Source: Candidatus Stoquefichus sp. SB1
GTDB lineage: Bacteria > Bacillota_I > Bacilli_A > Erysipelotrichales > Coprobacillaceae
DNA: 64,000 nucleotides
Assembly: GCF_001244545.1 (NCBI RefSeq)
Contig: NZ_LN852695.1
Location: 1-64,000, forward strand
Direction of reading: 5' to 3'
The position numbers and the translations under genes were made by a program. The notes beneath the pieces were generated by a model. The model worked only from the letters and a program-made list of their open reading frames with translations, had not been told where the DNA came from and made no database searches. The stretch's first letter is position 1. Each line of letters opens with the position of its first letter. Shown in pieces: positions 47,676 to 51,347 of this stretch.

Positions 47676-47879
47676 GAAGTTGACATTAAGAAAACCTTAT
47701 TCCAGAATTAAAATGTTAAGTTCCACTCTAAAGTATTGAAACTAAATTTAAGTTTTTTTATTCAACAAAAATTTCTTATTATTATCCGGACTTTTTAATT
47801 TTATAACTTTCAAACAGTATAAAGCAAAATAATTATGAAGGATATTGCTTTATAGTCGTTTTTATTGAAACAAACATGA

Positions 47880-48158
47880 AAAACGGGAACACAAATTGTG
47901 TTCCCAGATTGGAACTTCCTCATTGGAAAGTCATAGTCCACATTATTTTACTAGCCCGTGGGTCAGGCTTAGGAGCCAATCACCTTCCTGTGGTTCATTT
48001 ATTAAACTCAGGTTCTTGTGTCACTGTTTTAATAAATAGTAGAATCGCTCAGACTCAGCTATCTACCACACCCTCTTATTATTGTCTTTATTTTACTATT
48101 GGTATTTCTACCTATTCATATACTATGCTTGTGAGCTAAACTAATGCTTCTCTTACAG
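47880..48158 (-). ncRNA. Structured RNA of unknown class
   Basis: A transcription unit of about 275 nt on the minus strand. It begins after a good promoter (TTGATT-16-TATAAT, 48164-48191) and ends in a strong terminator (GGGAACACAA / TTGTGTTCCC then GTTTTT, 47885-47905). Several stems are visible: GTTTTAATAAA/TTTATTAAAC around 48000-48036, TGTGGT/ACCACA closing a multi-branch region, a GGTA/TACC hairpin near the 5' end, and CTAAGCC/GGGCTAG. It is more GC-rich than the flanks. I see no gene with a ribosome-binding site. It does not match tmRNA, RNase P or SRP RNA in any motif I know; 6S RNA cannot be excluded. Its 3' neighbour is the marR operon, 200 bases on. Confidence 0.6.
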
Positions 48159-48163
48159 TATTT

Positions 48164-48191
48164 ATTATATCAGAAGATCTTCACAAATCAA
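48164..48191 (-). promoter_or_regulatory. Promoter of the structured RNA
   Basis: Minus strand: -35 TTGATT (48186-48191), 16-base spacer, -10 TATAAT (48164-48169). Confidence 0.75.
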
Positions 48192-48345
48192 TTAATTATA
48201 TTAAAATTTTTATAAACCAAACTGCTAATTAAACTGCAATAAAGTAACCTTAAGGAAGCATTTTATTTAATGATTGATGATAGATATTTGAAAGACTTTG
48301 AATTATCAAAGAAAATACATATTATAATAGTTTGATTTCAAAAAA

Positions 48346-48370
48346 TTGGGAACACAAATTGTATTCCCAA
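48346..48370 (-). terminator. Terminator of the traB-merR operon
   Basis: TTGGGAACACAA / TTGTATTCCCAA stem followed by TTTTTTG on the minus strand. The hairpin is nearly the same sequence as the terminator at 47885-47905. Confidence 0.8.
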
Positions 48371-48383
48371 ACTACCTAATGTA

Positions 48384-49412
48384 TCATTCATAATTCTTTT
48401 CTAGATACTCATATACTGATAACTCATTCTGTAAAAATGCTCTTTTCAAGTTATTTTTATCAACAATCTTAACATCATGATATTCTAGAATCTCATAAAC
48501 TGATTTTCTATCTTGATCAGCTTCATGATATAAAGAACTGTTCATTTCAAAACAATGACCATCTCGCATATAAAATTGATATCTAATATTATAATAAGTT
48601 ACAGGTCCAAAACCAAGACCACCCAACTTTTTTTCAGTAATCACATTAACATATTCAATATCTTTATAAAGATATTTTCTTGCTAAAGTATGAGTTGTAT
48701 TATTTAAAATAGCTTTTATACTTTTTAACTTCATTTTATAGCTATCAAAGACATAAAAATGAACATCTCCAAATTCATAATATTTTTCATTGAAAACAAT
48801 AAGTATAAAGCCTAGCCAAACCAATAGACATCCTACTATCCATATTCCCCATTGAATATGATTGATAAAATGTGCATTTTTTAAATATACAATCATCGCA
48901 ATAAATAGAAATGCAATCATTAAAAATGATAATACTCCTGATTTGATAAGTTGATAAGGTGTTGTTTTAACACCTATTGTTATTACTGGATATGGTTGCA
49001 TAAAACTAGCCACTTTTTGAAACAATGATTTCATATGCTTGTCTTCATTAGCTGACATCTCATAAAATTCCCCATCAACGACTGCATCTAATAAAGGAAT
49101 GTTTTTTTGATTTAGTTCAATACATTTTTGCTGTATCTCTTCTAAATTATCTACCTGAACTTGTAAAGTTTTAATATGTTGATTTAAAACTTTTTGAAAT
49201 TCATTTTGATTCTGAAGTATTCTTTCAATCATTTCTAATGAGATATCTAATTCTCTTAAAAAACGAATCTTTTTTAAAACTTTTAAATCCTCTACAGTAT
49301 AATTTCTATATCCATTTTCGTCTCATTGAGGGTTCAAGAAACCAAGTTTATCATAATATCTAATTGTCTGAGAATTCATTTGTAACATATTTTCTACTTC
49401 TTTAATTTTCAT
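48384..49412 (-). pseudogene. MerR-family membrane regulator broken by an in-frame TGA
   Basis: Reading from the ATG at 49412 gives a MerR winged helix (MKIKEVENMLQMNSQTIRYY, then KLGFLNP) with TGA at codon 30 (49323-49325). The same frame then continues DENGYRNYTVEDLKVLKKIR as normal MerR sequence and stays open to 48384, 342 codons in all. The stop is probably a CGA-to-TGA change. The C-terminal part has two membrane helices (about residues 165-215) and a soluble tail. Without read-through only a fragment from the ATG at 49232 could be made, and it lacks the DNA-binding domain. It follows the TraB/GumN gene by five bases, so the pair was probably one regulatory unit. Confidence 0.8.
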
Positions 49413-49417
49413 AATAA

Positions 49418-50335
49418 CTATTCTCCTCCTTGACTTGACATAGAAATAACATCATATCCATCTTGTTTTAATAATTCAATAATACCATTTTCACCATATA
49501 AATGCCTACACCCAATACCAAAAAAATGAATACATTCCTCTTCAATAGAACTCTTAATTTCATTTGTCATAAATATATTCCTATCCTCCCCTAACATTTT
49601 TTGATATAGTTCAGCTTCTTTTTTAAATTCTGTTACTGGCAATTTATTATTTCTTTTAAAATATTGTCTATTACCTGAATAATAAGCATCCAAGAATTCT
49701 TTACTATCTCGAATATAGCCTTCTCTATCTAATAATGATTCCATAATATAATTTGAACATTGTAAAGATATATCAGAAAATAATGAAAATTGTTTTTCTA
49801 AACTTTCAATTTCTTTAAAGTTATTTTTCTTATTTGCATAATCAAATATATATAAATCTATTGAATTCATTTCATTGCCATTGATATCTTTTAATATATC
49901 ATTCAAAGCATAAGATGATAAAGCCATAGCGTTAAGTGTTTCAATATTTGAATATCTTTTCAAAGAAAAGTACTCCTCTTTCACTTTATCCAACTCCTCA
50001 GTTAGTTTCATATCATCAATACTATTATCACTTAAATAGTGTGCATATGAATTATATTGACTTTGATCCAGCGTCACTTCTAACCAAATATTTTCACTTT
50101 CATTTAAAGAATCTTCTGTTACTTTATCTAAAGTTTTTATTTCATTTCTGCCAGGATGACACGTTCCTAATAAATAAGAGTAATTTCCTTTTGAATTCAC
50201 TATCTTATATAAAAATACACTCACATCAATAACTTCACCTTTCTCGTTGCCAAGAGAACATCCTGTCAAATTCATTACCACCACAAAACTCAATATAATC
50301 ATTAAAACTGAGTTCATTATTTTTTTGATATACAT
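49418..50335 (-). CDS. TraB/GumN-family lipoprotein
   Basis: A 305-residue lipoprotein (signal with lipobox LTGC, Cys near residue 26). The TraB/GumN fold is shown by YLLGTCHPG (GTxH motif), ENIWLEVTLDQS (the paired E-x-D region) and a C-terminal FFGIGCRHLYGENGIIELLKQDGY. The family is thought to be metal-dependent protease-like, and includes pheromone-shutdown protein TraB; the role here is unknown. Ribosome-binding site AGGAAGGG. It overlaps the Shine-Dalgarno of the broken MerR gene. Confidence 0.75.
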   Translation of the reverse strand: MYIKKIMNSVLMIILSFVVVMNLTGCSLGNEKGEVIDVSVFLYKIVNSKGNYSYLLGTCHPGRNEIKTLDKVTEDSLNESENIWLEVTLDQSQYNSYAHYLSDNSIDDMKLTEELDKVKEEYFSLKRYSNIETLNAMALSSYALNDILKDINGNEMNSIDLYIFDYANKKNNFKEIESLEKQFSLFSDISLQCSNYIMESLLDREGYIRDSKEFLDAYYSGNRQYFKRNNKLPVTEFKKEAELYQKMLGEDRNIFMTNEIKSSIEEECIHFFGIGCRHLYGENGIIELLKQDGYDVISMSSQGGE

Positions 50336-50693
50336 ATATATCCCTTCCTTTCAATCAAACCATACACCTTTCAACGACTATAAGGTCAATATCTTTTTTA
50401 ATATATTTAGATTTTTTTAGTCATATTTATTTGATTTACTGAAATACAATCAATCTTTATAACCGATTCTATCCTATTCAAACTCAGTTAAAATATTGTT
50501 ACTTTTTTATTGATATTTCTGAGTGTTCATATGCCATGTTTTATCAGTTAAATTAATATCCTCTTTAGTCCTTTTTTCTACTATCATTAAAGATAAGAAA
50601 TCAAAATTTATTTAAAGAAAAAAGTTTATATTATGATAGAGTTGGCATAATATGAAAATATAAATGAAACTATAAACAATAAGTATATCATTC
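50336..50693. other. Gene-free region between TraB and antitoxin genes
   Basis: About 360 very AT-rich bases between two divergent genes. I see no gene, RNA fold or clear repeat in it. A TTGACC near 50390 on the minus strand could be the -35 for the TraB gene, but no good -10 follows. Confidence 0.5.
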
Positions 50694-50710
50694 AATATGT
50701 AATACATATT
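50694..50710. promoter_or_regulatory. Antitoxin operator palindrome
   Basis: AATATGTA-A-TACATATT: perfect 8-bp arms around one base. It ends directly before the -35 of the antitoxin promoter, as expected for an autoregulated RelB-type antitoxin. Confidence 0.7.
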
Positions 50711-50711
50711 A

Positions 50712-50740
50712 TTGACAATGTATATACTATGTATTCTAAT
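50712..50740 (+). promoter_or_regulatory. Promoter of the toxin-antitoxin operon
   Basis: Plus strand: -35 TTGACA (50712-50717), 17-base spacer, -10 TCTAAT (50735-50740). Confidence 0.75.
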
Positions 50741-50762
50741 TTTAATAGAAGGAGTGGTGAAT

Positions 50763-51023
50763 ATGGCACAGACGACAATTAGTATAAGAGTGGATGAAAA
50801 TCTCAAACATCAATTAGAAAAATTCTGTGATGAGACAGGTTTTACAATATCTTCATTATTTAATATATTTTCAAAAACAGTGGTAAGAGAACAAAGAATT
50901 CCTTTTGCAATTGAATTAGATCCTTTTTACTCACAAAAGAACATTCAGTATTTAACAAATATAGTTGATGATATAAAGACAGGTAAAGCACATCTTGAGG
51001 AACATGAACTTATAGATGATTAA
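50763..51023 (+). CDS. RelB/DinJ-family antitoxin
   Basis: An 86-residue protein with a ribbon-helix-helix start (TTISIRVDENLKHQLEKFCDETGFTISSLFNIF), the RelB/DinJ type, and an acidic C-terminal tail that would wrap the toxin. The start is the ATG at 50763 after GGAGTGG; a longer frame from 50712 covers the promoter and is not used. The partner toxin gene just downstream is broken, so this antitoxin is now alone. Confidence 0.85.
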   Translation: MAQTTISIRVDENLKHQLEKFCDETGFTISSLFNIFSKTVVREQRIPFAIELDPFYSQKNIQYLTNIVDDIKTGKAHLEEHELIDD

Positions 51024-51025
51024 TT

Positions 51026-51261
51026 ATGAAATTACTTTGGGAAGATAGGGCATGGAGCGATTACCTATATTGGCAATCACAAGATAAAAAACATTAAAAC
51101 GTATCAATTCTCTAATAAAAGAAATACAAAGAGATCATTTTAATGGAAAAAGGAACCTTGCAGGATATTGAAGCAGAAGAATTGATAGCGAAAATAGAAT
51201 TGTTTATACTATTGATGATCCTTATATTCTCATAATTGCATGTAAAGGACATTATGAGTAA
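51026..51261 (+). pseudogene. Decayed YoeB/Txe-family toxin
   Basis: Begins MKLLWEDRAWSDYLYWQSQD, the hallmark start of Txe/YoeB RNases, two bases after the antitoxin. The frame ends early at TAA 51095-51097. Removing a one-base deletion in an A-run (51086-51091) restores TLKRINSLIKEIQRDHFNG. A short internal deletion follows, then NLAGY and a TGA (51169-51171) where the family has Trp, and then SRRIDSENRIVYTIDD to the normal end (ACKGHYE). Three separate lesions mean the toxin is dead. Confidence 0.88.
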
Positions 51262-51266
51262 TAAAT

Positions 51267-51288
51267 AAGGTGGGAGTATTTTCACCTT
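51267..51288 (+). terminator. Terminator of the antitoxin operon
   Basis: AAGGTG / CACCTT stem with a 10-base loop and TTTTTATA on the plus strand, just after the toxin remnant. Confidence 0.7.
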
Positions 51289-51347
51289 TTTATATTCTCA
51301 ATAACGCTATTACAAAGTTATCATGTTAAATCACAAAGATGTTTCAT

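Follow-up and report, generated by a model that had tools for sequence, protein, structure and literature searches.

Comparison with known RNA-neutralised nuclease systems

A tandem-repeat RNA is the published mark of type III toxin-antitoxin systems, for which a working definition of the loci is also available (PMC5086642). In the AbiF/RCd22 system, an RNA neutralises a toxin other than ToxN both in cis and in trans (PMC12373285), which shows that a change of toxin is possible in loci of this kind. The locus described here lies in the window, by which we mean the whole stretch of 64,000 nucleotides that was analysed (Candidatus Stoquefichus sp. SB1, contig NZ_LN852695.1), and consists of a predicted RNA gene of about 280 nt on the minus strand (about 48157-47877). 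This RNA is probably an orphan antitoxin, a copy of the RNA half of a type III-like module without the toxin gene, and an antitoxin role is likely because the same RNA sits just before a predicted endoRNase gene in relatives.

The modules share with the type III systems ToxIN, CptIN and TenpIN the order of promoter, RNA, Rho-independent terminator and small nuclease gene seen in relatives, the pseudoknot of the RNA, the tandem-repeat RNAs present in many modules with a PBECR4 gene (PF18813), and the locations on phages and plasmids. The key differences are that the linked protein is PBECR4, which belongs to a group of predicted phage-type endoRNases (Iyer et al. 2017, PMC5512222), or a distant relative of it, and that the window type of RNA forms one long non-repeated fold and not tandem repeats. 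None of the linked proteins matched the ToxN, CptN or TenpN families in the Pfam, NCBIfam and PDB-sequence searches, which returned PBECR4 or nothing. The nuclease apart, the PBECR4 loci match the type III working definition (PMC5086642); the type III layout was found at three loci with the window type of RNA (L002, L006 and L029) and at most PBECR4 loci, but not at the window copy, which is followed by no toxin gene. AbiF with its non-coding RNA (RCd22/AbiFr) also has a structured RNA and a terminator before the gene of a non-ToxN RNase, but its protein is of the HEPN type (Abi_2) and its RNA is another one, and for the loci studied here we infer the neutralisation. Another structured non-repeat RNA placed directly before PBECR4 genes is the drum RNA (RF02958), which differs in sequence, and its covariance model gave no match in the window RNA or its homologues.

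The RNA gene and its conserved fold

The original prediction described a structured RNA of no recognised family, perhaps a new one, with a good minus-strand promoter, a strong terminator, a GC content above that of its surroundings and no supported gene, and the results bear it out on each of these points. The sequence scan found a promoter (TTGATT-16 nt-TATAAT with an extended -10 TG, 48191-48164, minus strand) whose -10 box and TG are conserved, being kept in L008, L006, L002 and L048, and the terminator scan found an intrinsic terminator with a 10-bp stem and a T-tail (47906-47884, minus strand); the start of the RNA was estimated from the -10 box and its end was placed at the T-run. Two terminator-like sites occurred in 900 bases in comparison to 0.1 expected. 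The GC content of the RNA stretch was 0.36-0.39 in comparison to 0.23-0.25 for the flanks. The overlapping plus-strand ORF of 87 aa matched no protein family above cut-off, and the tandem-repeat search showed the window RNA to be free of repeat units. In the Rfam search, which had been proposed with 6S RNA first, no family reached its cut-off in the RNA stretch, and even a limit of E = 10 gave nothing better than chance; the covariance models of tmRNA, RNase P RNA and SRP RNA, whose signatures had been reported absent, stayed below cut-off at the locus and these identities were rejected. The 5' leader carries a hairpin, CATAGTATATGAATAGGTAGAAATACCAATAGTA (48127-48094, minus strand), which recurs in three otherwise different RNA types before PBECR4-type genes.

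The folding energy of the 290-nt stretch was -68 kcal/mol, with a z score against shuffles of -2.3 (-3.9 and -4.0 for two homologues), and since the single-sequence fold is only mildly above shuffles, comparative evidence was needed. Homologues were thus aligned and searched for compensatory changes, as had also been proposed. The pair counts were based on an unedited MAFFT alignment and the RNAalifold structure, to which we added the pseudoknot. In seven aligned copies, 98.1% of pair cells held standard pairs in comparison to at most 44.3% with slid partners, and 20 cells showed double changes in comparison to 7.7 in shuffles; the covariation score for the seven copies was 0.408 versus 0.238. 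Helices P4a, P4b and P6 showed full pairing within each sequence in 8-10 copies, and 48-67% after exchange of strands between sequences; these helices and the pseudoknot were read by eye in the 8-10 copies, which is supportive and no proof alone. The compensatory changes in the homologues prove the fold, pseudoknot included, and this stretch of the window encodes a real RNA of a new family, present in gut bacteria.

The conserved core (47907-48074, minus strand, as are all helices given here) matched our covariance model, R1, with 151.7 bits. It contains a junction-closing stem (GGU 48072-48070 with ACC 47994-47992) which is nearly invariant, hence beyond covariation testing. The core also comprises helix P3 (GTAGA 48066-48062 with TCTAC 48043-48039), helix P4 (ATTTATTAAA 48037-48028 with TTTAATAAAT 48006-47997), of which the sequence is variable and the pairing preserved in 10 homologues, helix P6 (AGGA 47989-47986 with TCCT 47974-47971), which shows strong compensatory changes, the pseudoknot P7 (GATTGG 47981-47976 with CCAATC 47912-47907), which shows one double change from G-C to A-U common to two copies, and the nearly invariant hairpin P8 (AGCCTG 47969-47964 with CGGGCT 47958-47953). 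With regard to the pairings named beforehand, the 11-bp stem at 48000-48036 is confirmed as helix P4, which shows covariation, and CTAAGCC/GGGCTAG corresponds to the conserved hairpin P8, but TGTGGT/ACCACA is retained in relatives only in part, the closing stem of the consensus being GGU/ACC.

Homologues and linked genes in relatives

By blastn in 98 relatives, the RNA was found in two further genomes, Thomasclavelia (G041) and Faecalibacillus faecis (G023), at three places each and with 68-82% identity (best E = 8e-17). The search with R1, which was built from the alignment of seven copies, added copies in G024, G034, G202 and G234; in G041 it showed a fourth copy, which is decayed. Coprobacillaceae and Erysipelotrichaceae thus have homologues of about 70% identity, in several copies per genome. 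Of 315 genomes from the order, 7 contain the RNA; the sister species (G001) lacks it, and R1 gave no match beyond the order among 296 sampled genomes of the class. Neither a blastn search of phage and plasmid records with a homologous RNA nor the RNA pattern search in viral contigs gave a match. Two matches were rejected as chance, one to the pattern in a deltaproteobacterium (L064), which looks coding and lacks the remainder of the RNA, and one to R1 inside a repeat-protein gene (L023); matches of about 30 nt at L004 and L005 were left out.

The gene that comes after the RNA and its terminator at L002, L006 and L029 belongs in each case to a single family, here called A4. Each of the three A4 genes found (two in the Thomasclavelia genome and one in the Erysipelotrichaceae MAG G202) comes immediately after an R1 RNA that has a terminator of its own, and the search of about 200 genomes from the order showed no further A4 gene. 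The family is nameless in the databases searched and below Pfam detection; the profile-profile comparison linked it to PBECR4 with a probability of 93.7 and an E value of 2e-7, and the PBECR4-type protein is presumably a toxic RNase. The predicted protein models, made to look for the BECR fold of an RNase, were poor (mean pLDDT 32.5 and 63.8) and the structure searches gave no telling PDB match; PADLOC gave no match, and scans of viral contigs with the proteins retrieved no related loci.

Six genuine copies of the RNA had no adjoining toxin gene, and three of these belong to a single genome that contains neither PBECR4 nor A4 genes. Orphan copies with the fold, and mostly with the terminator, were the window copy, three in F. 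faecis, L021 and L030. In the Thomasclavelia genome a second RNA copy follows each A4 gene, which places the gene between direct repeats of the RNA, and recombination between such repeats would leave a lone RNA. At L022 the RNA, terminator, RBS and ATG are retained and only an 8-codon frame follows, which looks like a module with its gene lost. The F. faecis copies retain the fold, and L022 and the second copies of the Thomasclavelia genome are decaying. A skipping-rope RNA (RF02924, 63.8 bits) was observed at L002 2939-3018 (plus strand), about 160 nt past the decayed second RNA copy.

PBECR4 genes and their upstream RNAs

Of 148 genomes from the order, 19 had PF18813 genes, which also occurred in three further families of the class, and most PBECR4 loci read promoter, non-coding stretch, terminator, RBS and gene. 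An intrinsic terminator at most 90 nt upstream preceded 23 of 33 PBECR4 or A4 genes in comparison to 6 of 60 control ORFs (Fisher 5e-9), by a strict scan which missed some visible terminators, such as those at L037 and L045. The RNAs before PF18813 genes are of several unrelated types. Tandem-repeat RNAs with units of 53-55 nt precede PBECR4 genes at several loci, and the repeat mark of type III systems was seen at L072, L075, L031, L043 and viral loci; L048 has a leader-sharing RNA type. The drum RNA was met in three places (L040 898-1005, minus strand; L073 2029-2134, minus strand; L074 184-295, plus strand), and in each of them a PBECR4 gene comes directly after it. The genome of the window has its own PBECR4 module (L008, G000:C5:600045; PF18813 79.6 bits, cut-off 27), 552 kb from the window RNA, whose RNA is of the repeat type, yet has the promoter and leader of the window RNA (81% identity over 107 nt).

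PBECR4 genes with an upstream RNA are also carried by an Erysipelothrix phage and by an E. faecium vanA plasmid (L075, NZ_OR234015), where the gene comes after two 55-nt tandem repeats and a terminator (1274-1474). A PBECR4-type match was observed in 74 Enterococcus plasmid records. The repeat pattern alone retrieved 31 viral contigs, of which 8 had a PBECR4-type gene close behind, and two sub-threshold group I intron matches were noticed near a viral PBECR4 module (L108 248-501 and 662-910, plus strand). PBECR4-like genes without an upstream RNA were observed at L046, L047 and L049, which may be a different group; at L046 and L047 the reading frame just upstream ends in an ffh-like tail. PBECR4 was unmentioned in the literature searched, the scope of which excluded subscription papers and preprints, and an earlier description of PBECR4 systems may exist.

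Proposed function and alternative explanations

In the mechanism that we propose, one promoter would drive the RNA of a module made up of promoter, structured RNA, intrinsic terminator and PBECR4-type endoRNase gene, as in type III toxin-antitoxin systems. Most transcripts would end at the terminator, so that free RNA would be in excess, while read-through would give a little nuclease; the folded RNA would bind the nuclease and hold it inactive, and the nuclease would be set free if the RNA were lost or swamped, as in a phage take-over or when the element is lost. The analysis establishes the RNA, its fold, its homologues and the gene order in relatives, and we infer that the window type of RNA binds and inhibits a PBECR4-type protein. 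The window copy, with fold, promoter and terminator all intact, may be a relic, or may still be protective against incoming cognate modules.

A rather unlikely alternative is that the RNA works on its own as a regulatory sRNA, and that nuclease modules borrowed it or landed beside it. The well-preserved orphan copies would fit such an sRNA, but its spread is patchy, at 7 of 315 genomes and none of the 296-genome class sample, with the sister species lacking it, and every A4 gene is linked to the RNA. Still less probable is a cis-acting attenuator or riboswitch-like leader controlling the gene behind the terminator. Such a leader would agree with the distance of 14-23 nt from terminator to downstream gene at L002, L006 and L029, but at the window no co-oriented gene starts within 270 nt of the RNA, marR has its own promoter-like site (47675-47647), and the tandem-repeat RNAs before PBECR4 genes are unlike riboswitches. 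The identity as a divergent 6S RNA, which had been suggested, was rejected and we give it almost no weight: 6S RNA (RF00013) is likewise a stand-alone RNA with promoter and terminator, but no tool result spoke in its favour, the fold is multi-branched with a pseudoknot, the locus has no covariance match to 6S, and the genome's own 6S RNA is at G000:C3:244863-245023 (55.2 bits, above cut-off).

The reading as an orphan antitoxin RNA can be extended, tentatively and with somewhat less than even confidence, to a wider proposal, in which PBECR4 proteins would be the toxins of a widespread, undescribed class neutralised by RNA, which has taken up many unrelated RNAs as antitoxins (tandem repeats, the pseudoknotted RNA of the window, drum), with a leader that is shared and swappable in one group of gut bacteria and toxin-less copies, such as that of the window, persisting as immunity RNAs against incoming modules. 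If true, a new toxin family and several RNA antitoxin families would join the few known type III-like systems, the drum RNA, an Rfam orphan, would gain a function, and the presence of PBECR4 genes on phages and enterococcal plasmids would be easier to explain. One nuclease family held by unrelated RNAs would be a directly testable case, and at the window an unannotated intergenic stretch would become a named kind of element.

The accessory segment around the window copy

In the sister genome (G001) marR adjoins cobW, and in the window a 3.6-kb accessory segment (47702-51339), absent from that genome, lies between the two. Besides the RNA, it encodes a membrane-type protein without a name, a member of the TraB family, and RelB together with a YoeB-like toxin that is broken. 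No PBECR4 gene or remnant of one was found in the segment, no toxin gene or remnant adjoins the RNA, and no A4-type gene was found in the genome.

Two nearly identical 21-bp terminators (one mismatch) were observed, one after the gene of the 282-aa membrane protein (48346-48370) and the other ending the RNA (47884-47906); they were considered as an insertion boundary, which was rejected, since the search for a relative sharing the terminator gave none. The RelB antitoxin gene (50757-51023, plus strand) is followed by a frameshifted remnant of the YoeB-like toxin (about 51026-51240), the name YoeB being our reading of the translated remnant, which makes RelB the second antitoxin of the accessory segment that lacks a working toxin.
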